Shown: positions 18,313 to 56,019 of the stretch, in pieces | Numbering within the stretch: the first letter of the stretch is position 1 | Layout: each line of letters starts with the position of its first letter | Assembly (NCBI GenBank): GCA_028386065.3 | Contig: JAKUCV010006844.1 | Location: 1 to 64,000, forward strand | Direction of reading: 5' to 3' | Source of the DNA: Turnera subulata | Lineage: Eukaryota; Streptophyta; Magnoliopsida; Malpighiales; Passifloraceae | DNA: 64,000 nt | Translations under genes and position numbers: made by a program | Notes under the pieces: generated by a model | Database searches by the model: none | The model's input: the letters and a program-made list of their open reading frames with translations, nothing else | Told to the model about the DNA's origin: nothing

Positions 18313-20914
18313 GTTTATGTACCAACCCGGATAAATTTTTTCGCAATTTTACCGAGTTGTTTTAACTTTTACATATGTAAATAAAATTTTATCGCGGTTA
18401 ATCGGAAATTTTATCAATCCGAGTCAATTTTCATTAATTTATAAAATTATTATTACTTTTACCATTATTATCACTATTTTACTAATCAACATTAATAATA
18501 ATACTTTTATTATTAATGTGCCGGAATATTTTTGTTACAACAATATACTAATTATAATTTAAAGAGAAATTTCATCTTTTATTTCTATGACATTTAATAA
18601 ATTAATCTTTGGAGATTTATTTTGAATTTATAAAAGAGTAATTGTTAATTATGTCTATGTTTTACAAAGATTAAGTTAAAATGTTAAACACAAGATTTAG
18701 TGTAGTTTCGACCAATACGACGTAGTTTTGGCTGAGTCAAAACATAAAACACACAACACCTTGCGTTTTGACCAATGGTATGTGTGGTTTGACTCTGGAG
18801 CCTGTGGTTGTTTAAAACTACGTCGTTTCACTGTCGGCAGGGCAAAAATTATTGCCCGACAACACCGTTGTTAACCACCATTCTTTCCTTTTTTTTTTCT
18901 TTCTTTTTCCTCCCACTTTCTTTTGTTCTTCTTTTTCCCATCTTCCCTCTCCCGATTTCTTTCCAACCAGCCCCCTCCACCATCTTCTTCTCTTTCTTTT
19001 CTTTAACTTATCTCCTTCCCCTTCCTTTCCCTATATCTTCTCCTCCTCCACACTGAACCACCACAGCACCGCCACCCTTCCTCCTCTTTCCTGCCCTTCG
19101 TCGTCTCCGCCTCAACCTCCCTTGCTTCCGCCATCGCAGCCCTTGCCACTGCTCGCGAGTGCCGCCACAACCGAGCTCGACACCACCGAGAGAAGCAGAC
19201 CTCGTCGCCGTCAAGAGCAGCGAATCGAGAGGCTGCACACTCCAATCGGCAAAGACGTGCCTGGAGGATGGGAGCCCGATTGCATCGGCTCCGATCTGCT
19301 GCTCAAGCTGCCGCCGCCGCACCCTCTTCCTCTCCTCGATTTCTGCCGACCCGCCTCCGATCTGTCACTCGCCGCCGTCGCTGCAACTCAAAGCTGCTGT
19401 CACCATCGTTCCTTCTTCTCTCTCCTTTCCCTTCTCCCCTCCTCCACCAAGACGATACCAAGGTTGGGTGAGTCTTGGCCGCGCCTCCCTCTATCCTCTC
19501 TTTGTTTTATTTTGTTTTGATTAGCTAAGGTTCGTGGCTAATTTGGTTCAATTCGTTGTTTGTGGGTCTGTGTTTGGGTGTTGCCGAGGTGGATGTGGGG
19601 TGGTATGACGTTGATGGTGTGTTGAAGGTGGTGGATTTCAGTGATGTTGTTGCCGATGAGGTTGAATGGGCAGCGGGTTGCTACTCACGGGTGATTGATG
19701 TGTTGTTGATGGACGGCGTGTTGGATTTCTGGGGTGTTTTGCTGCTGTGAACAGTACCCCTGGCCAGAACCCGGCGAGTTCCGGTGACTCGGGTATATTC
19801 CGACGTGAACAGTATATCCTTCAGCAAACGGAACTCGATGGACGGGTTGCTTCGGTAATTCCTTGGACTCGTTTACACCATGAGCTTGGGTTTGGGCTCG
19901 GTTTGCGCAACAGACTCGAAAACGGGCTGAACATGCAGAGGCCCATGTTCCCGTAACGTATGCTTTGACGGACCTAATAACGAAACCGATGGACAAGTAA
20001 AATATGTGGACGTATTATATAATTAAATGGTTAATGATTTAATTTACGGATTAAAAATGATATTATTTTTAAATAACTATGTATTTATAAGGCTAAAATA
20101 TAACTTATTTTATGACTATACTATATTTTGTTAATGGTGTTATTATTATTATCTTAACTCTAATTACAATTACCATTTATATATACATATGTATTTATAA
20201 ATATTACAATTACAACATATACATATTTATGGTTATTTTCTCGGGAACGACTATTTATCGAAATGTCATTATTTCATATTTAAGTATAGACTACAAGTAC
20301 CTTACGGGTTATAATTATTTTACAGCTGTAAAAGTAATGTTTAATGGAAACGGTTTTGGAACGGCGATAACGATGTTAATTATGGATAAGCCGAATAATA
20401 AATTGATCTCATGCATTGCATTCTTCGATGTGCATTATAAGTGATGGTATGTGTTGACATGATATAGGAACAGACAAAGCCATATGGATTATGTACCGGT
20501 TTCAGAGACATACCAGGTGAGGATAAGTAAATATTTATATACTACCTGTGAAATCAAGTTGCTGTTTGTTTACTATGCATGATACTATTTTTTTTTTTTG
20601 ACTGTGATTGATTGTCGATGTTATTGATGATGTAGGAATTGTTGGTAAAAGTAAGTTTATTGTTGTTGTTGTTGACTGTGAGAATTGTGCCAGTTGAGTA
20701 CCGGGGGTACTATTATGTGATGACAGTTTTGTTAAGTTATTATCCAGACGAGCGGAGAGGCCGTGAGCCTGCTCGGGATGATGAGATAATAGTCGGTTAA
20801 TAGTAATATAGTAAGAAGTCGAGGGAAAAGAAGATAATAAAATGGAAACACTTAGACATCTAGTAAGTCACAGTTAAATATTGGAATAGACTGATGGTAG
20901 TCTTTATATTTATG

Positions 20915-21025
20915 GTGCTGGGGGAGAGTGTGCTTGGGGTTTGCTCCCTGTCTGTACCAATTTTTATTTTAGGCGCTGGGAGAGAATGTGCTTGGGGTCT
21001 GCTCCCTGTCTGTGCCAGTTATTAC
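20915..21025 (+). repeat. Tandem repeat of about 60 bp in the A and D LTRs
   Basis: The unit GGCGCTGGGGGAGAGTGTGC-TTGGGGTCTGCTCCCTGTCTGTACC-AATTTTTATTTTA is present twice here and once in A's right LTR (about 35530-35580). D's left LTR has three copies (46045-46205) and its right LTR two (56640-56735), on the minus strand. Copy number thus differs between paired LTRs of the same element. Confidence 0.75.
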
Positions 21026-21266
21026 GTGGAGGTACCAGGGCGGGGTCCACGGGCTAGCTAGCTTGACTACCTGGCGACGGCCACCATTTAACTAGTGATA
21101 GGGGCCCTGTTAATAAAATTGGATTAGTGTGTCTAGGATAACACAGAGTACCTTCTGTCTGTTACCGTCAGTTAAGGTTTGTGAAAACCTTCTGTTTGTT
21201 GCTATTTACTGTGACTTGGTTATTATTGGTTGCCTGTATATTTATCTTTACTTATGGATTTTACCC

Positions 21267-21314
21267 GGTAAGCACTTCGGACTCACCCCTCGCCTGCGTG
21301 ACTCGGTCACGTAG
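21267..21314 (+). other. Conserved LTR hairpin pair (HP1 + HP2), element A left LTR
   Basis: HP1 (21267-21287) pairs GGTAAG with CTCACC around a C(TTCG)G loop (one A:C mismatch in this copy). HP2 (21294-21314) pairs CTGCGTGAC with GTCACGTAG around TCG. The same block sits at 35824-35871 in the right LTR and in every other LTR family of the window. Confidence 0.7.
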
Positions 21315-21345
21315 TTTGGTCTTTTCTTAGTACAGGAACATACGA

Positions 21346-22212
21346 TGTAACGCCCCGAATCTCGTTAATTTACCTTTTTCGGAATTTTCAAAATTTTCGG
21401 TATTTAATTCCAATTTTACCCTTGCAACATTTTCGGAATTCAGGTTAAGGAAATCAATTTATTTTCCTTGGAAATATAAATTTTATTTCTAAGTCGGAAT
21501 TTGTCCTTGGTTCGTGTTTTGTTGGAGTAAATGTATCTCGGAGCTTGACGTGGAGCTTATAGTAGTTTGGGTCGAAACTACGTAGTTTTGGGGATAGAAA
21601 AAAAAAAAAAAAACGCTTTGACCAGGGTTGACCACGCTAGCCAAAACGGGGTCGTTTAGGCAGCGGGTAACCCTAACCCTCACTCTCTTTTCCTCTCTTT
21701 TCTCTCTTTCTTTTTCTTTTCTTTCTTTCTTCTCTTCTTCTGCCGCTCAGAGCCGCCTCCCTCCCTGACCCTTCTCTCTCTTTCTCTTCTTCTCTCTCCC
21801 TCTCATCCCTCCTCCTCACTCCTCCTCGCTTTTCTTTTCCTCTTTTCTCCCGAGCCGGCGGTGCTCCTTTCTTTTGTTCCTTGCCTCTCCACGCAGCTCG
21901 TCGCCGTTGGGCCTCTCGTCGCGGCCGGAGCTCGTCGCCGCCGCTGGTTCGTCTCCTCTCCTCACGGCCGGGTCCTTCTCTCTAGTAACACCGTGCCGTC
22001 GCCGTCGTCATTAGTCGGGTAAGCCGGCTTTCCCTCTTCCTTGTCGCTTCTCGTTTTCTTTTGGGGTTTCTTTGTGTTGACGGGTTGTTGTGGGTTGTGA
22101 TTGATTTCCTTAACCTGAATTCCGAAAATGTTGCAAGGGTAAAATTGGAATTAAATACCGAAAATTTTGAAAATTCCGAAAAAGGTAAATTAACGAAATT
22201 CGGGGCGTTACA
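21346..22212. mobile_element. 867-bp element with 113-bp terminal inverted repeats, TG...CA ends and 5-bp TSD
   Basis: It is inserted in the left LTR of A. TACGA is duplicated at 21341-21345 and 22213-22217, and the empty site is seen in A's right LTR (about 35896). The element begins TGTAACGCCCCGAATCTCGT and ends with the reverse complement of the same sequence. The inverted match runs 113 bp with one mismatch, up to AAGGAAATCAAT. The middle has a CT-rich tract (21680-21850) and a GC-rich block with a donor-like GTAAGCC (22020), much like the leader region of the surrounding LTRs. No protein frame was found. It may be a solo LTR with greatly extended inverted termini, or a foldback-type element using integrase-like chemistry. 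Confidence 0.8.
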
Positions 22213-22470
22213 TACGAGGCAAGCTGCAGTGTACCCTCGGGCAGGACTCGGATCCATTAGTTTGCATCAGGCTTTGCATATATTGTCTTGAGATCGTAAT
22301 CGCTTCCGCTGTGCTAATGATATTGAGATTCCCGAAGTCGGGTGATATGATATTGTCAATTGGGCCGTTGGGCCGGAATTTCTATTGTATATACTATTAG
22401 TGCCACGTGTCAGCACTGTTGTTCAGTAATTACTGTTTGTTGGATAAATTTGGGTCGGGGCGTCTCATTT

Positions 22471-22482
22471 TGGTAGCGGAGT
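22471..22482 (+). other. Primer binding site of element A
   Basis: TGGTAGCGGAGT starts three bases after the LTR end. The other elements have TGGTAGCGGAGC at the same place. This matches 10 of 12 bases of the usual TGGTATCAGAGC (initiator tRNA-Met); the two changes are shared by A, C, D and E. Confidence 0.65.
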
Positions 22483-22581
22483 GGGCGGTAGGTCCTTGGG
22501 TGTTTGTTGTGCTTGTTTGTTGTGCATAGCTCACTCCACATGATTTACATGATTGCATAATATTCACATGGTTAGTGCATT

Positions 22582-22632
22582 ATGGATCCAGTCGAGGGAC
22601 GCCAGCTTGCCACAAAACATTCACATAAGAGG
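22582..22632 (+). pseudogene. Relic of a gag start in element A
   Basis: ATGGATCCAGTCGAGGGACG encodes MDPVEGRQLA, matching the gag start of element D (MDPAEGHQHA). The frame is lost after about 15 codons. The equivalent relic is in E (about 30900-30942, minus) and C (42229 onward). It marks where the gag-pol part was replaced. Confidence 0.7.
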
Positions 22633-22720
22633 TAATTGATGCCATAAACATGCTGAAACATAAATATTATTATTATTACTACTAATATTAATATTACATT
22701 ATTATTATTATTAAAATTAT

Positions 22721-23404
22721 TTATCTTGCTGGTACAACGTTGACCCTGAAGCTAGTAGGGTCATTGGTAATGTTGACCCTGATGCTATCGTTCCACGAGA
22801 ACCACATACCGCCCGTGTTGTTTTGGCCGTGAAGTTCGAACCGGTTTGCCGGAGGGAAACGAAGTGGGATGACACCGTGATCGTCTTAGGACTGCCACTG
22901 GGTCTCCATGAGCAGAACCATGTTGGGCTTGTACTAGTTCTTCAGATCCCTCAGGGTACGCACGAACTCCTGGGAATGCCTAGCGATTCCTCTGCAGTTC
23001 CAAACCAGTAGACGGGCCTTTGGCCACGTTGGTGGTAACCGAGTTACTCGGGGCACGCTCTGAGCAGTCATTGAAAGCTGGTAATAGGTACCTTGATCCA
23101 GGAATTGACAAGTGGGCTCTAGGTTGAATTCCTGAAGTCTTTAATAAATGAAAAACATGACGGAATTGGCCGAGCCATAAAAGGAGGTTCTTAGGGTGCT
23201 TTGGTCCTCTAGGAAGAACGTCTCTTCCATAGGAGTGACAAAGAACCTGGAGGAGTAGTGTTCATCGACGAAGACCAGACGAGGCATCCTGCCAAGCTCG
23301 TTCGGTAGTTCCTCTGGGCGCTCGTTTATCAGGCTGTAGGCCAGCCAATTCCTCCTTCCTAAGGAGGCACCCTCGACGAAAAAAACAGATGATGGAGTAG
23401 GCAT
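22721..23404 (-). pseudogene. Antisense ORF2 of element A (endonuclease-domain-like C-terminal part)
   Basis: A 684-bp frame on the strand opposite to the LTRs, exactly the length of its copy in E, with no indels between them and roughly 83% protein identity. The first part (MPTPSSVFFVEGASLGRRNW..., ELPNELGRMPRLVFVDE, RFFVTPMEETFFLED) is not a family I know. The last part has RLLVWNCRG, TLRDLKN, a METQ acid motif and GGMWFSW, resembling the N-terminal half of the endonuclease/exonuclease/phosphatase domain of plant LINE ORF2. This copy has three nonsense codons (about residues 88, 157 and 174). Two of them are C-to-T changes relative to E, and E has its single stop elsewhere. A TATAAAAG (23512-23519, minus) lies 108 bases before the ATG. 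The domain is cut before its later catalytic motifs, so nuclease activity is unlikely. Confidence 0.65.
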
Positions 23405-23511
23405 TTTGTCTCGACGTGTTTTGTGTGTTTTTATCTCTAAACGTGTTTTACAAATCTCTCTTTTAAAATGCTTTTTGATTATTTGTTTTCCACTACTTTG
23501 GCTTTTATAGA

Positions 23512-23519
23512 GATATGAT
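23512..23519 (-). promoter_or_regulatory. TATA box of antisense ORF2, element A
   Basis: CTCTATAAAAGCC on the minus strand, 108 bases before the ORF2 ATG. E has TATAAAAG 109 bases before its ORF2 ATG, although the sequence between differs. Confidence 0.6.
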
Positions 23520-23646
23520 TACCTATTTTTCAAAGTTTAGACCCCACCTATCCCTGGAAGAGTCTAAAAGATTTTTTGGTAATCGGTAAAGCAGATTTCT
23601 TTTCACAAAACTCCAAACTGTTTATGATCTTCAAGGTTTTGCTTTT

Positions 23647-24460
23647 TGAAAATTTTGCCATTGATTGAATTATTGCTTCATCACTTTGTGTATTTTTGGG
23701 GTACAAACGCAAGTGCTTTCCAGCTCCTTTCCATCTTACAATTTTCTTTCATTCTGGCTTTCTTGGCGTTTCTTTTTATGGTTTTTTCTATATTTTCTAC
23801 ACCTATCACATCCATGAGAGGCCAACGTGGTCAGATTGATGGGACGATACCTCGAGTACGGTACATGAGCGACAAGGTTGCTTCTCTTTGGACATCGTGG
23901 AGGGACACGAATCCCGAAAGATGTTTTTGCTCTTGTAGAGTTTATGGACGAGTGGACCAACGCGTGTTTGTGACGTCATCATCGCCTCGCGAGATAACAA
24001 ACGACGTTTTCACATAGAGAACCGACATCTCTGATAGCAAGTGCAAGTTGTAATGCTCGAAATCGAGGACCTATGTGACCGATCTAGATCGCTGGTTAAG
24101 AAACGAGTTTTATTTAACTTCTTTATGATTGATTTTATTTCTTCCTTGCTGGTTTTTCTATCTTTACATGAAATATTTGCTCTTACCACCTTTTGTGTTT
24201 TGGGTTACTAATAATAGGTTTGGTTCTATTTCCTTTTTGTTGGTTTCTTTTCTTCAAAAAATTTTACCGGTATTTATGTTTTCGGATTGTTAACAAAAGG
24301 GTTTGGTTTATTCCCTTTCTGTTGGTTTTATGTTGTCTTAAAACATTTCATTTCTGCCATATACGTTTTCGGATTATTAATAACAGGTTTGGTCTTAATA
24401 AAGACAACTTGTTTATTTCCGATAACATATTACATAGAGAAGGAGTACACTATGGAGTTA
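23647..24460. other. Spacer between the antisense ORFs of element A
   Basis: It contains short blocks shared with E (for example ATCTCGCGAGGCGATGATGA, and AGAAAATATAGAAAAA with CCATAAAAAGAAA on the minus strand) but no conserved protein frame. The shared blocks suggest leader or 3' UTR function for the antisense transcripts. Small duplicated T-rich phrases (TTTATTCCCTTTCTGTTGG-like) occur near 24215-24330. Confidence 0.45.
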
Positions 24461-24461
24461 C

Positions 24462-24848
24462 TTACTTCTCTAAATCTTTTACAAGTTTTTGTATGTTCTC
24501 GATCTGAGAGGAGAGTCCCATACACGCCTGTTCGATCTGCATCACCGCCGTGTTGACCTTCATCAGGGAAGCGTTCAGATGCTTCAGTGTCCGCAGTGAC
24601 GTGTCGCTGGGAGCAGTTGCCTTGCCCTTCCTATCATCAGCATCCTTGCGACCGGAAGGCTCCTCCTTGCCGACAGGTTTCTTTCGCCATCTCCTGGAGA
24701 CGACCATATGTTCCCTGAGACCGATGATGTTCATCTTGAAGCGTTTCTCCGGCTGTTCTTCATCGGAGTCCGTAAAGGGATTAACACCACCAGTATAACT
24801 TAACTCCTCTGAGTCAGAGGTAGTTTGAGTTCTTATTGGTGAGTCCAT
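24462..24848 (-). CDS. Antisense ORF1 of element A: small basic, coiled-coil-like protein, 128 aa
   Basis: The frame is intact on the strand opposite to the LTRs. I chose the start at 24848 because MDSPI(R/Q) is conserved with E; 28 upstream in-frame codons to 24932 are not conserved. Order: Ser/Thr/Glu-rich N-terminus (TTSDSEE..., FTDSDEEQPEKRFK), the conserved core NIIGLREHMVVSRRWRKK, a Lys/Asp-rich basic stretch (possible nuclear signal), and a C-terminal helix with heptad-like hydrophobics (AVMQIEQACMGLSSQIENIQ, then KLVKDLEK). It ends three codons earlier than the E copy. TATAAAAA (24884-24891, minus) is 36 bases before the ATG. I do not recognise the family; a DNA-binding or gag-like accessory role is speculation. 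Confidence 0.6.
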   Translation of the reverse strand: MDSPIRTQTTSDSEELSYTGGVNPFTDSDEEQPEKRFKMNIIGLREHMVVSRRWRKKPVGKEEPSGRKDADDRKGKATAPSDTSLRTLKHLNASLMKVNTAVMQIEQACMGLSSQIENIQKLVKDLEK

Positions 24849-24883
24849 GACAGAGAGTAAGTTTGCCAGGTTTTGAGGTTTGG

Positions 24884-24891
24884 TTTTTATA
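24884..24891 (-). promoter_or_regulatory. TATA box of antisense ORF1, element A
   Basis: CCTCTTATAAAAACCAAACC on the minus strand matches CCTCTATAAGAACCGAACC in E, at nearly the same distance from the ATG (36 versus 37 bases). The short leader between is also conserved (CTGGCAAACT). Confidence 0.6.
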
Positions 24892-25019
24892 AGAGGACGG
24901 GAAGACGCATAAGGGTATATACGAGATTTCATGTTGGGTGCAGTAGACAGGATGTGGAGTACTCGAGAAGATTGTTGACGTAAGCCGTGACGATTGAATT
25001 TCGAAGACGAAATTCATTT

Positions 25020-25032
25020 AAGGGGGGTAGAC
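25020..25032 (+). other. Polypurine tract of element A
   Basis: AAGGGGGGTAGAC directly precedes the right LTR. It is preceded by the near-palindrome GAATTTCGAAGACGAAATTC, which is present before the polypurine tract in C, D and E as well. Confidence 0.75.
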
Positions 25033-25921
25033 TATAACGACCCGGGTAAATTTTTCGCAATTTTACCGAGTTGTTTTAACTTTTACATAGGTAAATAAAA
25101 TTTTGTCGCGGTCGGGAATTTTATCAATCCGAGTCAATTTTCATTAGTATTTTTATTATTCTTACAATTTATAAAATTATTATTACTTTTACCATTATTA
25201 TCACTATTTTACTAATCAACAATAATAATAATACTTTTATTATTAATGTGCCGGAATATTTTTGTTACAACAATATACTAATTATAATTTAAAGAGAAAT
25301 TTCATCTTTTATTTCTATGACATTTAATAAATTAATCTTTGGAGATTTATTTTGAATTTATAAAAGAGTAATTGTTAATTATGTCTAGGTTTTACAAAGA
25401 TTAAGTTAAAATGTTAAACACAAGATTTAGTGTAGTTTCAACCGATACGACGCAGTTTTGGCTGAGCCAAAACATAAAACACACAACACCTTGCGTTTTG
25501 ACCAATGGTATATGTGGTTTGACTCTGGAGCCTGTGGTTGTTTAAAACTACGTCGTTTCACTGCTGGCAGGGCAAAAATTATTGCCCGACAACACCGTTG
25601 TTAACCACCATTCTTTCCTTTTTTTTTCTTCTTCCTCCCACTTTCTTTTGTTCTTCTTTTTCCCATCTTCCCTCTCCCGATTTCTTTCCAACCGGCCCCC
25701 ACCACTTTCTTCTTCTCTTTCTTTTCTTTAACTTATCCCCTTCCCCTTCCCTTCCCTATATCTTCTCCTCCTCCACACCAAACCACCACAGCACCGCCAC
25801 CCTTCCTCCTCTTTCCTGCCGTTCGTCGTCTCCGCCTTAACCTCCCTTGCTTCTGCCATCGCCGCCCTTGCCACTGCTCGCGAGTGCCGCCACAGCCGAG
25901 CTCGACACCATCGAGAGAAGC
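25033..25921 (+). repeat. Element A right LTR, part 1
   Basis: It begins TATAACGACCCGGGTAAA (TG changed to TA) and follows the left LTR up to the duplicated GAAGC (25917-25921), where element E is inserted. Part 2 is 33824-36152. Confidence 0.85.
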
Positions 25922-26232
25922 TGAAGCGCCTCGACCCGTATTTACCGTACACAGTAAACACGTGCCGGAACTGTGACGACCCAACCAAACCAAGCCCAGC
26001 ATACAGTGTATACAACAGTAACTCGGGCTCAACAGCCCAAAATAAAAACATCAATAACATCATAATCGACCCAATGGCCCAACAGTAGTAAAAACAATGC
26101 ACAGCGGAAGACTTAATAACTCACAAGACACTGTATGCGACACTGATGCAAACTATGGATCCGAGCCCTGTCCAAGGGATAGCGCCGCAGCCTGTCTGGA
26201 ATGCACCAAACCTGTACCACAAATAACTCATC

Positions 26233-26280
26233 CTACGGGATGAAAGCCCGCAGACGAGGGGTGAGTCTGAAGTGCTCACC
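26233..26280 (-). other. Conserved LTR hairpin pair, element E left LTR
   Basis: HP1 26260-26280 (GGTGAG/CTCACC; the loop reads TTCA here instead of TTCG) and HP2 26233-26253 (CTGCGGG/CCCGTAG). The right LTR copy is at 31366-31413 with TTCG intact. Confidence 0.7.
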
Positions 26281-26510
26281 GACGAAGGATAGACAAACAA
26301 TAAGCACACTATAATTGCTCAAGGTCGAAAACAAGCAAAAACCACCAAAATACACCAAATCGAAAGACTCGACCCAAAACCGGTCCAAGACCAAAAAGAC
26401 TAAAAACCAATTTTCCAAATTTTATCTTTCCGGGCCTCGTCACGGATAAGCTAGAGGTCAGACCTGGTTATCAACACATTCCGGGTGCCAGACCAAATCC
26501 AGAGAACCCA

Positions 26511-26861
26511 GGGATCGACATCCCAAAAATACGAACCCAGGGATAGACATCCCAAAAATAATCACGGGATAGACATCCCAAGCATAGACATGCTTATCAC
26601 AAGTAACCCAGGTCATGGCCACCACCAAACAGTCTTAAACCATCGAGTCGTACCACTACTTATCTCGTGACAATTATATTATCATCATCAAAATCAAATC
26701 ACAGGGATCAACATCCCTTACCAGAATACCGGGATAGACATCCCATCCAAAATCAAGGATCGACATCCTTATCACAATTTATTATTAATTCCATTATACT
26801 TAATCCAAAAGACACAACAATAGACATCCAAAAACAACCAGGACACTGGGATAAACATCCC
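26511..26861 (-). repeat. Palindrome array in element E left LTR
   Basis: Eight short inverted repeats with 5-6 bp arms and a 4-base loop (plus-strand coordinates): 26511, 26540, 26566 (all GGGAT..ATCCC type), 26580 (AAGCAT/ATGCTT), 26703 (AGGGAT/ATCCCT), 26731, 26755 (AAGGAT/ATCCTT), 26848. On the LTR sense strand the loops are GTCG, GTCT, GTTG or GTTT. Arms change on both sides together. The right LTR array (about 31650-31975) has some arms broken by point changes. Confidence 0.8.
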
Positions 26862-28678
26862 GAACCAAACCACAGCAAACGCAATACTCAACAGTGCAAT
26901 AACCATCAAACACAACAACCGAGTAATATAGGCACATAATGAAGGAAATCCATCCTCACCTTAGCCGATTACTCAACTCCGGAGACAATGACCGGTCCGA
27001 CGCCGGCTCCTCGGGAAACTGCCCGATATCCGAACCTATACAACAAAATAATATATACACATAAATGCACATAATCAGTATACTATGATGCCAATACTGC
27101 AAAATAACCCATCCCAGTTACATATCTTTTATTATTATCTTTTACAGAAAATATTTTACCGTACGTATTTCCGAATATAATTTCGGTACCATACTTTAAT
27201 TAAAACTCTTTCCAAAATATTTTCATAAAATAATATGCTATTTCCAAAATAATAATTACCATAATTTTCCGGAAAAGATAACATATGTATATATATATTT
27301 TCCAAAATTATTTTTTTTAATAAAACCATTACCATAATATAATTACCAAGTATTATTATCTATCAAGAATATATATTAATAGAAGATATATAATCATAAA
27401 AACTTACTCTGAAAATAAATACAATTTAATATATATACATTTTTATTTTCTAAAGACAAAAATACTTTTCCAACAATTATAAATCAACATAATAATCTAT
27501 TTCCAGAAATATTACTTAGGTATACCATATATATCTTTTTCAGAAAATATATCTTTTATTTTTATTTAATTTATACCAATTATAACCATATATATATTTT
27601 CCAGAAAATACATTTTACAAATATATAGGTATTTTTTATTTATTATTTTTTTAACGGACTGGGCCAAACAGTGCAGGCCCAGTAACATGGACTAGGCCCA
27701 CGCAGTAAGCCTGCCAACACAGCCCAGCCCAAACATTCATGGCCCAAACCAACATCAACCCAATCACACCCAGCCCACACTCGCGACCCGGATGAGGCGT
27801 CGGGTCAAACCCGACCCACAGCCACGACCCGACGGGTCATCTTCTTCCCTAAGCTCACCTAGCGGGTGTGGCAGGCGGCGCAGACGGACGAGCAGCGACA
27901 GGGCCCGGGAACGAGCGGGCGAAGGGAGGAGGACGCGGCATCAGTGAGGCAGCGGCAGGAGAGGAGGCGGCGTCGTGGTGCTGCAGATCGAGACGGCGAG
28001 GATGGCGGGTTCGACGGGCAGCAGCGGCGTGAAAGAAGAAGAGCAAGGGACGGTTGTGGACGGTTGCTCATCATCGTCTTCGTCCAAGGAAGGCAGCAGC
28101 TCGGCTACGGCGGGAGGAGGAGGAGGAAGAGAGGAGGGCGACGGTGGCTGCCGGTTCTCTTTGTTTTTTTTTTCTTTTTCTTTTCTCTATTTTCTGATTG
28201 GTTCTCTTTTTTTTTTCTTTTTTTTCTTCTTTTTTTCTCTCCCTCTCTTTTTTTTTTCTTTCTTCTTCTTTCTATTCTCTCTTTTTTTTTTCTCTCTTTT
28301 TCTTTTTCTTCTCCTCCTCTTCCCCTTCCTGCTTTCTTCTTCCTTTAAAAACCGTGGAATCACTGTGAAACCTGTGATTCCTTCAATAATGCAGCTTGTC
28401 TGCATTATGAAGCGAGTCCGGTCTGGACCAGAAAATAACTGATACCCCCTTAGTTATTTTCCGGTGTGATTTTTCCGAAAATTCCGGGACCCGAAAAATG
28501 CCATCTTAGGTCCGAAAAATCCACGAAAAAATCTCGAGCGTGGGAAAACTTTCGGTTTCAAAAATCGACGCCCGTTTTACCTTGAATTAATTACCCAAGA
28601 TTAATTCTTTCGGTAAATCGTTGTAGAAAGACTTTTACGGTCCGGTGAAAATCCAAAATTTTTACCCGGGCTGTTACA

Positions 28679-28691
28679 GTCTACCCACCTT
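28679..28691 (-). other. Polypurine tract of element E
   Basis: AAGGTGGGTAGAC on the minus strand abuts the 3' LTR and is preceded by the GAATTTCGAGGACGAAATTC near-palindrome. Confidence 0.7.
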
Positions 28692-28821
28692 AAAAAGAAT
28701 TTCGTCCTCGAAATTCCGTCTTATCCGTGGGTCCTACCACGATAAGCTTCTGGCACACTCTGCCAGGTGTCCAAACTCGACCCGAGATACCGCTTATACC
28801 CTTAAACGACTTCTCGTCCTC

Positions 28822-28827
28822 TATAAG
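28822..28827 (+). promoter_or_regulatory. TATA box of antisense ORF1, element E
   Basis: CCTCTATAAGAACCGAACC, 37 bases before the ORF1 ATG at 28864; position and surroundings are conserved with element A. Confidence 0.6.
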
Positions 28828-28863
28828 AACCGAACCTCATGACTGGCAAACTCACATACAGTC

Positions 28864-29241
28864 ATGGACTCTCCAATCCAATCTCGTACTACCTCTGACT
28901 CCGAGAACAACAGCTATATCGGTGGCACTGCCTTCCCGACAAGCTCCGATGAAGAACCTCCGAAGAAACGCTTCAAGACTAACATCGTCGGCCTGAAGGA
29001 ACACATGGTCATCTCTAGCAGACGGCGAAAGAAGCGTGCCATCAAGAAGGCTGAGGATAAGAAGGGCAAGGCAACTGCTGAAAGCAGCACTCCACAGCAG
29101 ACACTGACACAGTTGAATGTCTCACCGAAGAAGATCAGCTCGGCGGTGATGCAGATAGAACTGGCGTGCGCGGAACTCTTTCCCCACGTCAAAAACGTCC
29201 AAAAACTTGTAAAAGATCTAGAGAAGCAAGTAGCTCCATAG
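28864..29241 (+). CDS. Antisense ORF1 of element E: small basic, coiled-coil-like protein, 125 aa
   Basis: Intact frame on the strand opposite to E's LTRs. Same order as the element A copy: MDSPIQSRTTSDSE, acidic FPTSSDEEPPKKRFK, core NIVGLKEHMVISSRRRKKR, a Lys-rich stretch (AIKKAEDKKGKAT), then a predicted helix (AVMQIELACAELF..., NVQKLVKDLEKQVAP). Blocks shared with A are DSE, SDEE, KRFK, GL.EHMV.S, KGKAT, AVMQIE.AC and QKLVKDLEK. Length differs from A by three codons through in-frame indels only. The family is unknown to me. Having both copies open despite clear divergence suggests selection until recently. Confidence 0.62.
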   Translation: MDSPIQSRTTSDSENNSYIGGTAFPTSSDEEPPKKRFKTNIVGLKEHMVISSRRRKKRAIKKAEDKKGKATAESSTPQQTLTQLNVSPKKISSAVMQIELACAELFPHVKNVQKLVKDLEKQVAP

Positions 29242-29984
29242 AGTACTTCTTCTCCTGTTGTAAAACTATTGTAAAATAAATAAAATAAGCTTTCTTTTTA
29301 AATCAAAAACTCTTGTTAAATTGTGAAAACTCATGCTAACAAAAAGATAAAACATCTCAAAGCAGAACAAAAATCAACAATAAAAATATAAATCGAACAA
29401 AAAGAAATTAAAAACAAAACTCGTTTAATAAAACCAAAACATAAAGAAGTTAAGACAAAACACGTTTTCATGATCGGTGCTCGTATCGGACGTAAACACC
29501 CTCGAACCCAAGAAACGTAACGCGCACAGCTAACGGTGACGTCTGTTACCTCGTGAAAAAGATGACCGTTAACTCGCAAGGCGATGATCACGAGAGCGTC
29601 CTATGTCCCTCGAAAGAAACGATATCCACTTGTCCGCAAATTCCGCATGAGCCAAAACGTCTGTCAAGTCTTGTATCTCTCCACGGTGTCCGAACAGGTG
29701 TAAGCTTGTCGCACATGCGCTCTACTCGAGGTATGGTCCCATCAGTCTAGCCTCAACAGTCACGGATGCATGTGATAAAAGATGCAGGAAAATATAGAAA
29801 AACCATAAAAAGAAAGGACAAAGTAGCCAGGGCGAAAGAAAATCATGAGATGGAGAAGAGCTGAAAAACACTGGCATCGTAGCCCGAAAAACGTATAAAG
29901 TAACAAAGCAATAAATGAAGCAACGGAAAATTTCAAAAAGCAAATCTTGAAAATCGAAAATAGTAATCACGCTCCCCATAAGAG
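29242..29984. other. Spacer between antisense ORFs of element E
   Basis: It holds blocks shared with element A's spacer (GATGATCACGAGAG-like, AGAAAAACCATAAAAAGAAA), AT-rich 3' UTR-like sequence just after ORF1 (AATAAATAAAATAAGC at 29276), and no conserved protein frame. Confidence 0.45.
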
Positions 29985-29992
29985 TATAAAAG
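29985..29992 (+). promoter_or_regulatory. TATA box of antisense ORF2, element E
   Basis: GAGTATAAAAGACGG, with TATAAAAG 109 bases before the ATG at 30101; the copy in A is 108 bases before its ATG. Confidence 0.6.
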
Positions 29993-30100
29993 ACGGAGCG
30001 GTGAGGTGTAAATCGTCAAAAGCATCTAAAAGCAAACAACGCTCAGGCAAACTAAACCACAACGCTCAGAAAAACAAAATACCCACGCTTCCAAAACACG

Positions 30101-30784
30101 ATGCCTGCTCTCTCATCCGTCTTCTTCGTCGAAGGTGCCAACCTAGGCAGAAGAAACCGGCTGGCCTACAGCATGGTCAACGAGCGTCCAGAAGAACTAC
30201 CAAACGAGCTCGGCAGAATGCCGCGTCTGGTCTTCGTCGACGAACTCTACTCCTTCAGATTCTTCGTCACTCCCATGGAAGAGACATTCTTCCTGGAGGA
30301 CCATGGCACTCTGAGGACCTCCTACTACGGCTCGGCAAACTCCATCATGTTCTTCATCTCGGAAAGACTTTAGGAGTTCAACCTAGAGCTCACTTGCCAC
30401 TTCCTGGAGCAAGGCACCTACTACCAACTCTCGATGACGGCCCAGAGCATGCCCAGAGTAACTCGTCTGCCCGTAACTTGGCCCAAGGCCCGTCTACTGG
30501 TGTGGAACTGCAGAGGAGTCGCTAGGCGTTCCCAGGTGTTCTCGCGTACCCTGAGGGACCTGAAGAACCAATACAAGCCAAACATGGTTCTTCTCATCGA
30601 GACCCAATGGCAGCCTCAAGACGATCACGATCTCATCCCACTCCGGTTCCCCCAAGCAAACCGGTTCGAGCTTCCAGGCCAGAACAACGCGGGTGGCATG
30701 TGGTTCTCGTGGAGCGACAGCATCCAAGTCAACATCAACAATGACCCTAACAGCTTCAGGGTCAACGTCGTTCCGAGAAGATAA
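30101..30784 (+). pseudogene. Antisense ORF2 of element E (one nonsense codon; endonuclease-domain-like C-terminal part)
   Basis: A 684-bp frame with a single TAG (30371-30373, residue 91) where A has CAG. Residues 1-90 contain FFVEGANLGRRNRLAYS, PEELPNELGRMPRLVFVDE and FFVTPMEETFFLED. Residues ~130-228 contain ARLLVWNCRGVARRSQ, TLRDLKNQYKPNMVLLIETQ and NAGGMWFSWSDSI, like the first half of LINE-type EEP endonucleases (WN..G and the metal-binding Glu motif). The later His/Asp motifs are absent because the frame ends. AT-rich sequence with possible polyadenylation signals follows (30785-30850), then the gag relic and PBS of E. The frame could be translated as an N-terminal protein of 90 residues or by read-through. 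Confidence 0.65.
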
Positions 30785-31039
30785 TTGTTTTTTTATTTTT
30801 ATAAAATATCAATGTAATATTTCTGTTTGTAATCAAAATATTAGTATTATTAATAATATTTATATTTTCGTTTATTTATGGCATCATTACCTCTTATGTG
30901 TATGTTCTGCGACAGCTGGCGTCCCTTGACTGGATCCATAATGCACTAACTAAATGATATAAAGTAATAAATAAATGGAGCGAACTATGCAAACAAGAAC
31001 AACAAACACACAAAGACTGCCCAACAAGACCTAACGGCC

Positions 31040-31051
31040 GCTCCGCTACCA
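31040..31051 (-). other. Primer binding site of element E
   Basis: TGGTAGCGGAGC on the minus strand, three bases inside the 5' LTR end at 31055. A gag-start relic (MDPVKGRQL) lies further in, near 30910-30941, minus. Confidence 0.65.
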
Positions 31052-31054
31052 AAA

Positions 31055-33818
31055 TGAAGCTCCCCGACCTGTATTTACCGTACACAGTAAACACGTGCCG
31101 GAACTGTGACGACCCAACCAAACCAAGCCCAGCATACAGTGTATACAACAGTAACTCGGGCTCAACAGCACAAAATAAAAACATCAGTAACATCATAATC
31201 GGCCCAATGGCCCAACAATAGTAAAAACAATGCACAGCGGAAGACTTAATAACTCACAAGACACTGTATGCGACACTGATGCAAACTATGGATCCGAGCC
31301 CTGTCCAAGGGGTAGCGCCGCAGCCTGTCTGGAATGCACCAAACCTGTACCACAAATAACCCATCCTACGGGATGAAAGCCCGCAGGCGAGGGGTGAGTC
31401 CGAAGTGCTCACCGACGAAGGATAGACAAACAATAAGCACACTATAATTACTCAAGGTCGAAAACAAGCAAAAACCACCAAAATACACCAAATCGAAAGA
31501 CTCGACCCAAAACCAGTCCAAGACCAAAAAGACTAAAACAAAAACCAATTTTCCAAATTTTATCTTTCCGGGCCCCGTCACGGATAAGCTAGAGGTCAGA
31601 CCTGGTTATCAACACATTCCGGGTGCCAGACCAAATCCAGAGAACCCAGGGATCGACATCCCAAAAATACGAACCCAGGGATAGACATCCCAAGCGTAGA
31701 CATGCTTATCACAAGTAGCCAGGTCATGGCCACCACGAAACAGTCTTAAACCATTGAGTCGTACCACTACTTATCTCGTGACAATTATATTATCATCATC
31801 AAAATCAAATCACATGGATCAACATCCCTAACCAGAATAATGGGATAGACATCCCATCCAAAATCAAGGATCGACATCCTTATCACAATTTATTATTAAT
31901 TCCATTATACTTAATCCAAAAGACACAACAATAGACATCCAAAAACAACCAGGACACTGGGATAAACATCCCGAACCAAACCACAGCAAACGCAATACTC
32001 AACAGTGCAATAACCATCAAACACAACAACCGAGTAATATAGGCACATAATGAAGGAAATCCATCCTCACCTTAGCCGATTACTCAACTCCGGAGACAAT
32101 GACCGGTCCGACGCCGGCTCCTCGGGAAACTGCCCGATATCCGAACCTATACAACAAAACAATATATACACATAAATGCACATAATCGATATACTATGAT
32201 GCCAATACTGCGAAATAACCCATCCCGGTTACATATCTTTTATTATTATCATTTACCGAAAATATTTTACCGTACGTATTTCCGAATATGATTTCGGTAC
32301 CATACTTTAATTAAAACTCTTTCCAAAATATTTTCATAAAATAATATGCTATTTCCAAAATAATAATTACCATAATTTTCCGGAAAAGATAACATATGTA
32401 TATATATATTTTCCAAAATTATTTTTTTTAATAAAACCATTACCATAATATAATTACCAAGTATTATTATCTATCAAGAATATATATTAATAGAAGATAT
32501 ATAATCATAAAAACTTACTCTGAAAATAAATACAATTTAATATATATACATTTTTATTTTCTAAAGACAAAAATACTTTTCCAACAATTATAAATCAACA
32601 TAATAATCTATTTCCAGAAATATTACTTAGGTATACCATATATATCTTTTTCAGAAAATATATCTTTTATTTTTATTTAATTTATACCATTATAACCATA
32701 TATATATTTTCCAGAAAATAAATTTTACAAATATATAGGTATTTTTTATTTATTATTTTTTTAACGGACTGGGCCAAACAGTGCAGACCCACCTTACTAC
32801 ATGGACTAGGCCCACGCAGTAAGCCTGCCAACACAGCCCAGCCCAAACATTCATGGCCCAAACCAACATCAACCCAATCACACCCAGCCCACACTCGCGA
32901 CCCGGATGAGGCGTCGGGTCAAACCCGACCCACAGCCACGACCCGACGAGTCATCTTCTTTTCCCAAGCTCACCTAGCGGGTGTTGCAGGCGGCGCGGAC
33001 AGACGAGCAGCGACAGGGCCCGGGAACGAGCAGGCGAAGGGAGGAGGACGCGGCATCAGTGAGGCGGCGGTAGGAGAGGAGGAGGCGTCGTGGTGCTGCA
33101 GTTCGAGACGGCGAGGATGGCAGGTTCGACGGGCAGCAGCGGCGTGAAAGAGGAAAAGCATGGGACGGTTGCTCGTCATCGTCTTCGTCCAAGGAAGGCA
33201 GCAGCTCGGCTACGGCGGGAGGAGGAGGAGGAAGAGAGGAGGGCGACGGTGGCTGAAGGTTCTCTTTGTTTTTTTTTTCTTTCTTTTCTTTATTTTCTTT
33301 TTCTTTTCTTTTCTTTTCTTTTTCTTTTCTCTATTTTCTGATTGGTTTTTTTTCTTTTTTTTTCTTCTTTTTTTTCTCTCCCTCTCTTTTTTTTTTTCTT
33401 TCTTCTTCTTTCTTTTCTCTCTTTTTTTTTACTCTCTTTTTCTTTTTCTTCTCCTCCTCTTCCCCTTCCTGCTTTCTTCTTCCTTTAAAAACCGTGGAAT
33501 CACTGTGAAACCTATGATTCCTTCAATAATGCAGCTTGTCTGCATTATGAAGCGAGCCCGGTCCGGACCAGAAAATAACTGATACCCCTTTAGTTATTTT
33601 CCGGTGTGATTTTTTCAAAAATTCCGGGACCCGAAAAATACCAACTTAGGTCTGAAAAATCCACGGAAAAATCTCGAGCGCGGGAAAACTTTTGGTTTCG
33701 TAAAACGACGCCCGATTTACGTTGAATTAATTACCCAAGATTAATTCTTTCGGTAAATCGCTGTAGAAAGACTTTTACAGTCCGGTAAAAATTCAAAATT
33801 TTTACCTGGGCAGTTATA
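31055..33818 (-). repeat. Element E right LTR (5' LTR)
   Basis: It mirrors the left LTR. The outer end is TATAACTGCCCAGGTAAA (TG mutated to TA) and the inner end ...GGTCGGGGAGCTTCA. The CT-rich tract (33266-33450, plus strand) is longer than in the left LTR because of TTCTTTTCTTTTC expansions. Hairpin pair at 31366-31413. Confidence 0.85.
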
Positions 33819-33823
33819 GAAGC

Positions 33824-36152
33824 AGACCTCGTCGCCGTCAAGAGCAGTGAATCGAGAGGCTGCACACTTCAATCGGAAAAGACGCGCCAGGAGGATGGGA
33901 GCCCAATTGCATCGGCTCCGATCTGCTGCTCAAGCTGCCGCCGCCGCACCCTCTTCCTCTCCTCGATTTCTGCCGACCCGCCTCCGATCCGTCACTCGCC
34001 GCTGTCGCTGCAACTCAAAGCTGCCGTCACCATCGTTCCTTCTTCTCTCTCCTTCCCCTTCTCCCCTCCTCCACCAAGACGACACCAAGGTTGGGTGAGT
34101 CTTGGCCGCGCCTTCCTCTCTCCTCTCTTTGTTTTATTTTGTTTTGATTAGCTAAGGTTCGTGGCTAATTTGGTTCAATTCATTGTTTGTGGGTCTGTGT
34201 TTGGGTATTGCCGAGGTGGATGTGGGGTGGTATGACGTTGATGGTGTGTTGACGGTGGTGGATTTCAGTGATGTTGTTGCCGATGAGGTTGAATGGGCAG
34301 CGAGTTGCTGGTCACGGGTGATTGATGCGTTGTTGATGGATGGCGTGTTGGATTTCTGGGGTGTTTTGCTGCTGTGAACAGTACCCCTGGCCGAAATCCA
34401 GCGAGTTCCGGTGTCTCGGGTATCTTCCGGCATGAACAGTATATCCTTCAGCAAACGGAACTCGATGGACGGGTTGCTTCGGTAATTCCTTGGACTCGTT
34501 TACACCATGAGCTCGGGTTTGGGCTCGGTTTGCACAACAGACTCGAAAACGGGCAGAACATGCAGAGGCCCATGTTCCCTTAACGTATGCTTTGACGGAC
34601 CTAATAACGAAACCGATGGACAAGTAAAATATGTGGACGTATTATATAATTAAATGGTTAATGATTTAATTTACGGATTAAAAAAGATATTATTTTTAAA
34701 TAACTATGTATTTATAAGGCTAAAATATAACTTATTTTATGACTGTACTATATTTTGTTAATGGTGTTATTATTATTATCTTAACTCTAATTACAATTAC
34801 CGTTTATATATACATATGTATTTATAAATATTACAATTACAACATACACATATTTATGGTTATTTTCTCGGGAACGACTATTTATCGAAATGTCATTATT
34901 TCCTATTTAAGTATAGACTACAAGTACCTTACGGGTTATTATTTTACAGCCGTAAAAGTAATGTTTAATGGAAACGGTTTTGGAACGGCGATAACGATGT
35001 TAATTATGGATAAGCCGAATAATAAATTGTTCTCATGCATTGCATTCTTCGATGTGCATTATAGGTGATTGTATGTGTTGACATGATATAGGGACAAACA
35101 AAGCCATATGGATTATGTACCGGTTTCAGAGACATACCAGGTGAGGATAAGTAAATATTTATATACTGCCCGTGAAATCAAGTTGCTGTTTGTTTACTAT
35201 GCATGATACTATTTTTTTTTACTGTGATTGATTGTCGATGTTATTGATGATGTTGGAATTGTTGGTAAAAGTAAGTTTATTGTTGTTATTGTTGACTGTG
35301 AGAATTGTGTGAGTTGAGTACCGGGGGTACTATTATGTGATGACAGTTTGGTTAAGTTATTATCCAGACAAGCGGAGAGGCCGTGAGCCTGCTCGGGATG
35401 ATGAGATAATAGTCGGTTAATAGTAATATAGTATCGAGGGAAAAGAAGATAATAAAATGGAAACACTTAGACATCTAGTAAGTCACAGTTAAATGTTGGA
35501 ACAGCCTGATGGTAGTCTTTATATTTATGGTGCTGGGGGAGAGTGTGCTTGGGGTCTGCTCCTTGTTTGTGCCAGTTATTACGTGGAGGTACCAGGGCAT
35601 AGTCCACGGGCTAGCTAGCTTGACTACCTGGTGACGGCCACCATTTAACTAGTGATAGGGGCCCTGTTAATAAAATTGGATTAGTGTGTCTAGGATAACA
35701 CAGAGTACCTTCTGTCTGTTGCCGTCAGTTAAGATTTGTGAGAACCTTCTGTTTGTTGTTGTTTACTGTGGCTTGGTTATTATTGGTTGCCTGTATATTT
35801 ATCTTTACTTATGGATTTTACCTGGTGATCACTTCGGACTCACCCCTCGCCTGCGTGACTCGGTCACGTAGTTTGGTCTTTTCTTAGTATAGGAACATAC
35901 GAGGCAAGCTACAGTGTACCCTCGGGCAGGACTCGGATCCATTAGTTTGCATCAGGCTTTGCATAAATTGTCTTGAGATCGTAATCGCTTCCGTTGTGCT
36001 AGTGATATTGAGATTCCTGAAGTCGGGTGATATGATATTGTCAATTGGGCCGTTGGGCCGAAATTTCTGTTGTATATACCATTAGTCCTACGTGTCGGCA
36101 CTGTTGTTTAGTAATTACTGTTTGTTGGGTAAATTTAGGTCGGGGAGTCTCA
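33824..36152 (+). repeat. Element A right LTR, part 2
   Basis: It resumes A's LTR after the GAAGC duplication and ends GGTCGGGGAGTCTCA followed by the GTTTA target duplication. It holds the empty site (ACATACGAGGCAAG, about 35893-35906) of the 867-bp element and the hairpin pair at 35824-35871. Confidence 0.85.
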
Positions 36153-51283: not shown

Positions 51284-51296
51284 GTCTACCCTCCTT
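51284..51296 (-). other. Polypurine tract of element D
   Basis: AAGGAGGGTAGAC on the minus strand directly before the 3' LTR (TGTAACAGCCCGGGTAAA). Confidence 0.75.
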
Positions 51297-51318
51297 AAAA
51301 GAATTTTGTCCCCGAAAT

Positions 51319-54300
51319 TCACTCTGAACCGGTGAAGAGTTGCGGATACTGGGACCGCATATGCTCCTCGACTTCCCATGTTGACTCGTTAGCAGAATGC
51401 TTACTCCACTTGACCTTAACCATAGGAATGGTACGGTTCCGCAACTGCCGGACTTCTCGAGCAAGAATCTGTTCCGGCACTTTTGTGTAGGTGAGATCTT
51501 CTGCCACTTCAACATCCACCGGGGCCACAATATGACTAGGGTCTGATCAGTATCTCCTCAGTATAGAGACATGAAACACATCATGTATGCGTGAAAGCTC
51601 TCCAAGTATGGACAACCTGTAAGCCAAAGGTCCGATCCTCTCAACGATCTCATATGGCCCGATATACCTTGGACTCAACTTTCGTCTCTTGCCGAACCTG
51701 ATCACTCCTTTCCTGGGTGCAACTCTGAGAAAAACCTTCTCACCAACGTTATACTACATCTTACGTCGGTGTTTGTCGACATAGCTCTTTTGCCGATCCT
51801 GAGCAGCTCTCATGCACTGTCTCACTGTCTGGATCTTCTCCACTGTCTGTTGGACTAACTCCGGTCCAACGATCAATCTCATACCTTCTTCGTCCCAACA
51901 TACCAGACTTCTACACTTCCTTCCATAGAGAGCCTCAAAAGGTGGCATACCAATGCTGGAATGGTAGCCGTTGTTATATGCAAACTCTGCCAAGGGTAGA
52001 TACTTATCCCAACTCCCACTGAAGTTAAGTGCACAAGCTCTTAGCATGTCCTCCAGTGTCTGTATGGTCCTCTCAGACTGTCCATCTGTCTGAGGATGAA
52101 AAGCAGTGCTGAAGCTCAACTTGGTTCCCAAAGCAGCTTGTAAACTCTTCCAGAATCGTGTGGTGAATCTGGGATCTCTGTCTGAGACTATAGACTTTGG
52201 AATCCCGTGTAGTCTCACAATCTCAACAACATACTTACCCGCCAATGTGTCCATGGTATCAGTCTGGCGGATAGGAAGAAAATGAGCTGATTTTGTTAAT
52301 CGGTCAACGATGACCCAAATAGCATCATGCTGCCTCCGAGTCATCGGCAAACCAATCACAAAATCCATAGTGATCATCTCCCACTTTCACTCCGGCATTT
52401 TCAACGATCTCATCTTGCCTGCTGGAGCCTGATGTTTGGCTTTCACCTGCTGGCAAGTAATGCATCTTGCGACATACTCTGCCACATCCTTCTTCATACG
52501 AGGCCACCAAAAATGGCTCTTCAGGTTCTGATACATCTTGGTGCTTCCAGGATGCATCGCATACGGCGTCATATGACCTTCATCCAGGATCTAACTACGT
52601 AGATTACTGACATTGGGTACACATACCCGTTTCCCAAACATCAATGCTCCATCATCTGCTATACGAAACTTGTCTTCTTTTCCACTCCTTACTCCTTCCT
52701 TAAGCTTGACCAGGTCGGGATCTCCATCTTGTAACTCCACTATCCATCCTCTTAGGTTAGACTTGACACTCATGTGTGCTAGTAAAGCTCCTGTTTCATC
52801 CACTGTCAAGTCAACTCCCAACTTCCTTAACTGGATAAGTGAAAACATCGAGTAACTATTGGAGGCGTCATCTTATTGTCTCCGGCTCAAAGCATCAGCT
52901 ACCACATTAGCCTTCCCTGGGTGATACTCGATAGTACAGTCATAATCATTAAGCAACTCAACCCAACGTCTTTGTCGCAGGTTAAGCTCCTTCTGAGTCA
53001 TGATGTACTTAAGGCTTTTGTGGTCGGTGAAGATTCGACACTTCTCTCCAAACAAGTAGTGTCTCCAAATCTTCAGAGCCAAGATCACAGCTACCATCTC
53101 AAGATCATGAGTCGGGTAGTTCTTCTCACGAGTCCTTAGTTGTCTAGAGGCATAAGCAATCACTCTTCCTTCTTGCATCAGCACAGCTCCTAAACCAAGT
53201 CCTGATGCATCACAGAACAACACATACTCCACTCCTGGCTTCGGTATTGTTAGCACTGGTGCCGCGGTTAGCTTCTTCTTAAGCTCCTCAAAACTCTGTT
53301 GGCACTCTAGGCTCCAAACGAAAGCTTGTTCTTTCCTCAATAACTTAGTCATGGGACTGGCTAATAAGGAAAAACCTTCTATGAACCTCCGATATTATCC
53401 TGTAAGGCCAAGAAAACTCCTAACTTCGGACACATTCTTAGGAGGCTCCCACTCCAACACAGCCTTAACTTTGGCAGGATCAACCTTTATTCCATCCCCG
53501 CCTACTACATGTCCGAGGAAGGAAACTTCTCCAAGCCAAAATTCACACTTGCTGAATTTGGCATACAGCTGCTTCTCCCGTAACCTTTGAAGTACAATCC
53601 TCAAATGCTCTACGTGCTCTTCCTTGCTCTTAGAGTAGATGAGGATATCGTCGATGAAGACCGCAACGAACTTATCCAAAAACTCGTTCAAGACCAAGTG
53701 CATCAAGCACATGAATACTGTCGGTGCATTGGTCAAACCGAAAGGTACCACAGTGAATTCGTAGTGGCCATACCGTGTGCGAAAAGCTATCTTCGGTATG
53801 TCCTTCTCTGAAATCTTATTCTGGTGATAGCCCGATCGGAGATCAATCTTTGAAAACACCGTTGCTCCTTGAAGCTGATCAAAAAGATCATCAATCCTCG
53901 GTAACGGGTACTTGTTCTTGATTGTCACCTTGTTGATCTAGCGATAGTCTACACACATATGCAGACTACCATCCTTCTTTTTCACGAACAAAACTGGTGC
54001 ACCCTATGGTGAGGTACTAGGTCTGATGAAACCTTTCTCCAATAGTTCGTCTAGCTGCTTCTTCAGCTCCTGAAGTTCTGTTGGTGCCATCCTGTATGGT
54101 GCCATCGAGATAGGTGTAACTCCAGGTACAAGCTCAATGGTGTACTCAACCTCTCTGTCGGGTGGCAAACCTGGTAGATCATCTGAAAAAACATCAACAA
54201 ACTCCCTCACAACTAATTCATCCTCTAGGGTAGGGTCTTGTGTCTCTCCGCCTGGAATATAGGTCAGCAAAGCATCCAGTCCACATTGCTTCATTCCGTA

Positions 54301-55917: not shown

Positions 55918-56019
55918 CTCGTCCTACCTACTTGAAGATGTATGCATGAGTATCATATTTATAACATGTGGAGCAGGATATGCACAAACAATCAAACAAC
56001 AACCAATGACCTACAGCCC

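Follow-up and report, generated by a model that had tools for sequence, protein, structure and literature searches.

Additional ORFs that lie antisense between pol and the 3' LTR (aORF-3R) are known from Grande (gene23), RIRE2, Retand and PvRetro13, as described in PMC7264820 and PMC11963269. According to PMC11963269, some of the Retand elements are non-autonomous and lack some of the typical domains, and all clusters there have antisense ORFs; antisense ORFs in non-autonomous elements are therefore not new as such. What such ORFs do in plant retrotransposons is presented as an open question in PMC7264820. The pair of antisense genes that we describe below belongs to this known kind. What we have not found described in the literature searched is this conserved pair of genes, its selected presence in elements that have lost nearly all of gag-pol, and its occurrence in families whose LTRs are unrelated. 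In elements that keep the pair without gag-pol, the antisense proteins are uncoupled from the machinery of replication, and the benefit of these proteins can there be studied alone.

The layout of the locus is based on a self-comparison of the window, i.e. the whole 64-kb stretch of DNA that was analysed, and on a reading of the element edges. The features that concern the gene pair are the following, with positions given in the window.

18318..22467, plus strand: 5' LTR of element A, with the TSD GTTTA directly before it
22468..22488, plus strand: PBS-like stretch of A, the start of which is similar in A, C, E and B
22582..22635, plus strand: gag-start remnant of A (ATG at 22582, 17 codons, stop), within a stretch that aligns to element B at its leader and gag start
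22721..23404, minus strand: ORF2 of A, 684 bp, 227 codons, three stops in the A copy
23504..23509, minus strand: TATA box of A ORF2, 105 nt upstream of its ATG
24412..24417, minus strand: AATAAA motif 3' of A ORF1
24462..24848, minus strand: ORF1 of A, 128 aa, with basic stretches and a coiled-coil-like C end (by eye)
24886..24891, minus strand: TATA box of A ORF1, 43 nt upstream of its ATG
about 25018..25032, plus strand: PPT of A, from the edge reading
25033..25921, plus strand: 3' LTR of A, part 1, split by element E
25922..33818, minus strand: element E, inserted inverted in the 3' LTR of A, TSD GAAGC
25922-28678 and 31055-33818, minus strand: LTRs of E, 93.8% alike
28864..29241, plus strand: ORF1 of E, 125 aa, antisense to E, with one in-frame 21-nt indel relative to A
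30101..30784, plus strand: ORF2 of E, 227 codons, one stop, antisense to E
33819..36152, plus strand: 3' LTR of A, part 2, with the TSD GTTTA next to it
51285..56087, minus strand: gag-pol of element B, of autonomous type but broken, without the antisense pair between pol and LTR

Element A (18318-36152, plus orientation) has all parts of a complete LTR retrotransposon, with TSD, PBS and PPT present. Its LTR pieces are 93.4-95.9% alike in the self-comparison of the window, and its interior of 2.57 kb (22468-25032) keeps 17 gag codons up to the first stop, not the approximately 12 counted in an earlier, sequence-only reading of this DNA. The order in both A and E is 5' LTR, PBS and a short gag start, with the PPT just ahead of the 3' LTR. 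With paired LTRs, TSD, PBS and PPT and no gag-pol, A and E are non-autonomous LTR retrotransposons, and in each of them both ORFs run antisense to the carrier. The sequence-only reading was right on this orientation, as the LTRs had been read correctly and the order of the LTRs, the PBS, the PPT and the TSDs of A fix it; its sizes and coordinates for ORF2 (684 bp) and ORF1 (128 aa) are exact, and the same two frames do recur in E, again antisense to the LTRs. The stops in ORF2 are expected for old insertions. An insertion of about 865 bp, partly C/T-rich, lies in the 5' LTR of A at about 21345-22210.

The LTR and leader of element B are related to those of A and in part to those of E, and its chromodomain was seen by eye only. 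B is nested in the 3' LTR of element C (38031-60823), a complete LTR element with the TSD TTATC, LTRs of about 4 kb, a leader similar to that of A, and a 1.3-kb interior that holds neither a frame of at least 110 codons nor the cassette, i.e. the pair with its spacer. An E-related solo LTR (46888-49884), with ATACT on each side, is nested in the LTR of B, and an E-type LTR in the orientation of E (61680-64000) runs past the end of the window. The only host-like gene noticed is a frame at 8865-9368 that matches a mitochondrial carrier (PF00153).

Between A and E, ORF2 is 83.2% identical over 684 bp with 0 indels; for the spacer that separates the two ORFs, identity is 56-74% and 16 indel events fall within 859 bp. 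The differences in ORF2 are distributed over codon positions 1, 2 and 3 as 23, 19 and 73, and in a window scan phased on ORF2 this third-position bias is confined to ORF2. With a dN of 0.080 and a dS of 0.688 the dN/dS ratio amounts to 0.117, which was reached in 0 of 2000 neutral simulations of ORF2 (lowest simulated ratio 0.374). For ORF1 the A-E ratio is 0.53, which is not significant; because 11% of the simulations were equally low, the A-E pair alone does not prove that ORF1 is coding.

Further copies were sought in the host assembly (518.7 Mb, 7125 contigs). Codons 1-90 of ORF2 gave 6286 first-look candidates, and the 150 of these that were scored all had E <= 1.2e-50 and were stop-free over these codons in 149 cases; ORF1 gave 3833 candidates, and the 150 scored all had E <= 1.6e-62. 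The numbers 6286 and 3833 count candidates, not elements. The layout set comprises 70 of the 71 fetched loci plus A and E, the excluded locus (L001) being a second view of E. It contains 61 places in which ORF2 is present over 500 nt or more: 28 are gag-less, meaning that the gag start and PBS side adjoin ORF2, 6 are gag-only (5 distinct elements) and 27 are unclassified, 23 of the latter being ORF1-fetched stretches that end in or just past ORF2. Seven of the 61 are repeat fetches of an element already listed. ORF1 is found upstream of ORF2, on the same strand, in 53 of the 61 places. At L031 (8337-9020) an ORF2 with one stop has no adjoining ORF1, PBS or known LTR and lies near a frame that by eye is mariner-like transposase. 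Also by eye, the RT frames at L032 (4149-4679) and L034 (1580-2023), which are about 32-35% like that of B, resemble remains of endogenous pararetroviruses. An open frame of 1078 aa at C617 was discarded as an artefact of a run of N.

ORF2 is free of frame-breaking indels in 31 of 38 different copies; the random frameshifts in other copies that the sequence-only reading had set beforehand as its refuter are not seen. Over these 31 copies (465 pairs) dN increases with dS at a slope of 0.088. Since most copies had been chosen by likeness of codons 1-90, the codons beyond were retested, which gave a slope of 0.109 and a ratio of 0.182. In the copies fetched with ORF1, codons 1-160 of ORF2 were found in 23, of which 19 have no frameshift and 12 of these 19 no stop, with a ratio of 0.103. 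ORF1, in turn, is present in 25 of 31 ORF2-fetched copies, without a frameshift in 22 and fully open in 16, and its dN/dS is 0.177 (231 pairs, 22 copies); the two remaining frames on the strand of ORF1 give 1.38 and 1.46. The dN/dS over copies, which had been proposed as a check, is well under 1 for ORF2 (31 copies) as well as for ORF1 (22 copies). Judged from these substitution patterns, both predicted proteins are kept by purifying selection while the elements multiplied. All copies were picked by similarity to the ORF queries, so that these counts apply to carriers of the ORFs rather than to all copies of a family.

The motif TATA[AT][AG] is present 39-43 nt upstream of the ORF1 ATG in 57 of 60 places (base-shuffle mean 4.8) and 60-130 nt upstream of the ORF2 ATG, mostly near 116, in 58 of 61 (base-shuffle mean 9.1); these counts include six and five repeat fetches, respectively, and stem from related copies, so they are not independent events. 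The 5' flank of ORF2 is only 56% identical between A and E, yet the TATA box is retained. AATAAA occurs within 150 nt past ORF1 in all 58 places and past ORF2 in only 2 of 35. It appears that the cassette consists of two minus-strand units, each with its own TATA box, from which transcription would start. The conserved TATA boxes would, together with conserved blocks in the spacer, also fit a cassette that matters as RNA or DNA, through antisense transcripts or as a packaging or dimer signal, with coding being incidental; regulation by antisense RNA in elements of this kind is a subject of PMC7264820. We consider this very unlikely, since the changes in ORF2 are biased to third positions and dN/dS is well under 1 in both frames but above 1 in the other sense frames tested.

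The position of the genes in autonomous-type relatives can be read from two places. L068 (C5086), read from the end of PR downstream, has a single open frame with the end of PR, RT, RNase H, IN and a match to the chromodomain profile PF00385 (E 2.7e-4, 21.2 bits, under the cut-off of 25.1). This pol frame ends at 3262 and is followed by ORF1 (5484-5092, minus strand) and then by the PPT at about 5687; ORF2 is missing. ORF1 of L068 has the position of an aORF-3R, antisense to pol and between pol and the 3' LTR, where the LTR is recognised by its likeness to those of gag-only elements. In C4132 (L071) an integrase end, 99% like that of L068, is followed by ORF2 (cut at about codon 187) and ORF1, both antisense to pol, on 4.1 kb; this order rests on 701 bases read of the 4.1 kb, and a nested insertion between the parts is possible. 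Neither of these two integrase-end places, the ones examined of 150 listed, is an autonomous copy with both ORFs whole. By eye, the same non-cassette sequence follows ORF1 in L068 and interrupts ORF2 in L071, as if one were a deletion of the other.

Gag lies beside the cassette in L018, L066, L067, L069 and L070, none of which shows a match to B-type pol; the LTR pairs of L066, L067, L069 and L070 are about 97-98% alike. The earlier claim that the two frames are the only genes of their carrier accordingly applies to A and E but not to some of their relatives, which have gag or pol beside the cassette.

The carriers of the cassette differ far more than the cassette itself. The LTR side of L068 aligns to the LTRs of the gag-only elements (best pieces 85-93%); none of them aligned to the LTR of E at 1e-5, apart from 22 bp matched between E and L069, and with those of A and C they have stretches of just 36-69 nt in common. 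L069, a gag-only element, has a non-coding spacer that is 80.1% identical to that of E over the entire 859 bp, yet its leader has only the PBS (14-29 nt) and pieces of 11-12 nt in common with those of E and A. Element A aligns to B over 161 nt (73%) of leader and gag start, whereas for E the alignment to the leader of B is broken into pieces of 21-27 nt; between E and A the leader is 85.7% alike. The similarity of the LTRs of A and E to that of B is partial (80.7% over 710 nt; 75.9% over 216 nt). On these alignments E is tied to B through A and through parts of the LTR. The pol of B, 57% identical in protein to that of L068, reaches its PPT without a cassette, and the interior of B shares only 40-48 nt, at the PPT end, with the cassettes. 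Since the cassette is far more alike than the carrier backbones, it has most likely been passed between families. A and E look like chimeras of a B-type backbone and the antisense module of another family, and the exchange would have run from the L068 type to the B type.

A had been taken for a replication parasite with a host-derived or foreign cassette. The evidence supports a non-autonomous element with a foreign cassette in place of gag-pol and with frames under selection. An origin from the host is not supported; the source observed is a different family of LTR retrotransposons in this genome, which has the pair, or one member of it, in antisense orientation downstream of pol and ahead of the 3' LTR. 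If a conserved pair of host genes had been captured several times independently, dN/dS would likewise be low, from selection before capture, the constraint then belonging to the host. This is highly improbable given that both junctions and homologous non-coding flanks are common to A and E, that the copies are very many and that ORF1 stands upstream of ORF2 on the same strand so regularly (53 of 61 places).

In an ML tree of the 38 ORF2 copies, the bootstrap of which had not settled, at least three changes of the gag-less state are needed on well-supported branches; A groups with gag-only elements (100/97), and six gag-less copies group with the autonomous-type L071 (100/100). Over 25 gag-less copies the ORF2 and leader-LTR distances are correlated with r 0.37 (p 0.011), and inside the main E-type clade (21 copies) there is no correlation (r 0.08). 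This weak linkage may reflect either repeated exchange or a star-like burst. The spread of gag-less copies over two ORF2 clades, the changes of gag state and the weak linkage are also in line with selection that operates only in autonomous masters, the gag-less elements being short-lived sinks that are refreshed by recombination and to which the proteins are useless. That 17 of the 28 gag-less ORF2 copies are broken (11 are fully open) speaks for it as well. We nevertheless find it doubtful: gag-less pairs are far apart (mean dS 0.355; 276 pairs, 24 copies) yet have a dN of 0.044, A and E have the same junction of gag with the cassette, which makes many separate captures less likely, and ORF2 does correlate overall with leader and LTR.

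We consider it probable that A and E are non-autonomous chimeric elements of the Ty3/gypsy type (chromovirus-like), in which a B-type backbone has been combined with the selected antisense module of another family, the proteins of which would act in the nucleus on their own element. The LTRs, PBS, leader and gag start of A and E would then be of the type of B, kin of which may supply gag-pol in trans, and the 3' interior from the PPT to the end of ORF2 would be the antisense accessory module that the other family has between its pol and 3' LTR. The ordinary route of exchange is template switching within a shared particle, and the module may have reached B-type backbones by such switching between co-packaged RNAs. 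The antisense proteins would act in the nucleus on the producing element or its near kin, possibly by keeping the chromatin of the element transcribed, or by aiding its RNA or cDNA. If the product acted mainly close to where it is made, this would account for its being needed in a parasite that lacks gag-pol.

The two genes might also constitute a semi-independent selfish module that moves between unrelated LTR backbones by recombination, with proteins that act mainly on the source locus, for instance by local anti-silencing. We regard this as unlikely; if action on the source locus were true, even elements without gag-pol would be selected to keep both genes. For the chimeric elements that we favour, the occurrence of the module in unrelated LTR families suggests that accessory genes can move between families inside one genome.

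The N half of ORF2 is without relatives, and its C part is weakly but consistently like the first third of EEP nucleases. Of the 6 copies scanned, 5 match the profile PF03372 from residue 134 onward (E 0.0039-0.036), each time beginning at profile position 2 and covering about 2-89 of its 225 positions; the match is thus partial and below the cut-off, and a full-length EEP domain was not found in ORF2. The NCBIfam EEP model gave an E of 0.18 in the one copy scanned, and the WNCRG and ETQ motifs of ORF2 are reminiscent of plant LINEs. These matches make it plausible, as a tentative reading, that ORF2 arose from a LINE endonuclease (EEP) fragment fused to an unrelated N half and now serves as a non-catalytic binding domain. 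On the other side, every score is under the curated cut-offs, the copy of A (with X at the stops) gave no match, a 9-row profile found no relative in the PDB, and the AlphaFold models of two unbroken pieces of ORF2 of E (pLDDT 36 and 50) are too poor to compare.

In a set of 5.8 billion proteins, ORF2 gave 61 candidates, none with E <= 1, and ORF1 gave 10 candidates and no match; this search depends on 5-residue words common to query and target, and close relatives of the window may be absent from the set. A control query with gag-PR of B gave 1296 matches in the same set, and named plants among the 120 listed indicate that plants are represented. TRP28 (PF04195) had no match at E <= 10 in Pfam scans of ORF1 and ORF2 copies, and searches of plasmids, viral contigs, prokaryote contigs, Rfam (at the gathering threshold), tRNA and the PDB returned nothing relevant. 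By analogy with the nuclear antisense protein of Grande, as described in PMC7264820, a nuclear regulatory role would be the likeliest for the two proteins.

The sequence-only reading knew of no described family with this pair. This stands in so far as both proteins matched nothing in the protein searches made, but antisense extra ORFs at that place had already been described for Retand, Grande and RIRE2 (PMC7264820). In the literature searched for the pair itself, for antisense ORFs in chromoviruses and for exchange between families, no account of the pair or of its exchange was found, and only the aORF papers proved relevant.

Compared with the aORF-3R as given in the cited papers, ORF1 of L068 has the same place and strand, the genes likewise have no clear relatives and are kept in many copies, and the conserved TATA positions point to possible own promoters such as the one reported for gene23 of Grande. 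In contrast to these ORFs, there are two genes here, TRP28 is not matched and the element appears to be chromodomain-bearing rather than of the Retand/Tat type; moreover, A has lost all of gag-pol but 17 codons, and the module is common to families with unrelated LTRs.

L068 is similar to the Tekay/Del chromoviruses in its PR, RT, RNase H and IN and in the sub-cut-off chromodomain match with which its pol ends, whereas A and E have none of these domains. The main text of PMC6317226 has 0 occurrences of the word antisense. LARD and TRIM are non-autonomous LTR elements. A and E resemble these in having LTRs, PBS and PPT without gag-pol, and differ from them in that their interior holds two opposite-strand frames that show selection.

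Foreign genes within an LTR element are also found in maize Bs1 (as summarised in PMC7264820); unlike in Bs1, the source seen here is the accessory module of another retrotransposon, lies antisense and occurs in very many copies. Finally, a Gypsy element of Phalaenopsis with an AlkB-like ORF (PMC9289625) is comparable to A and E in that an added ORF has been retained through rounds of replication, but, unlike A and E, that element retains Gag and Pol.
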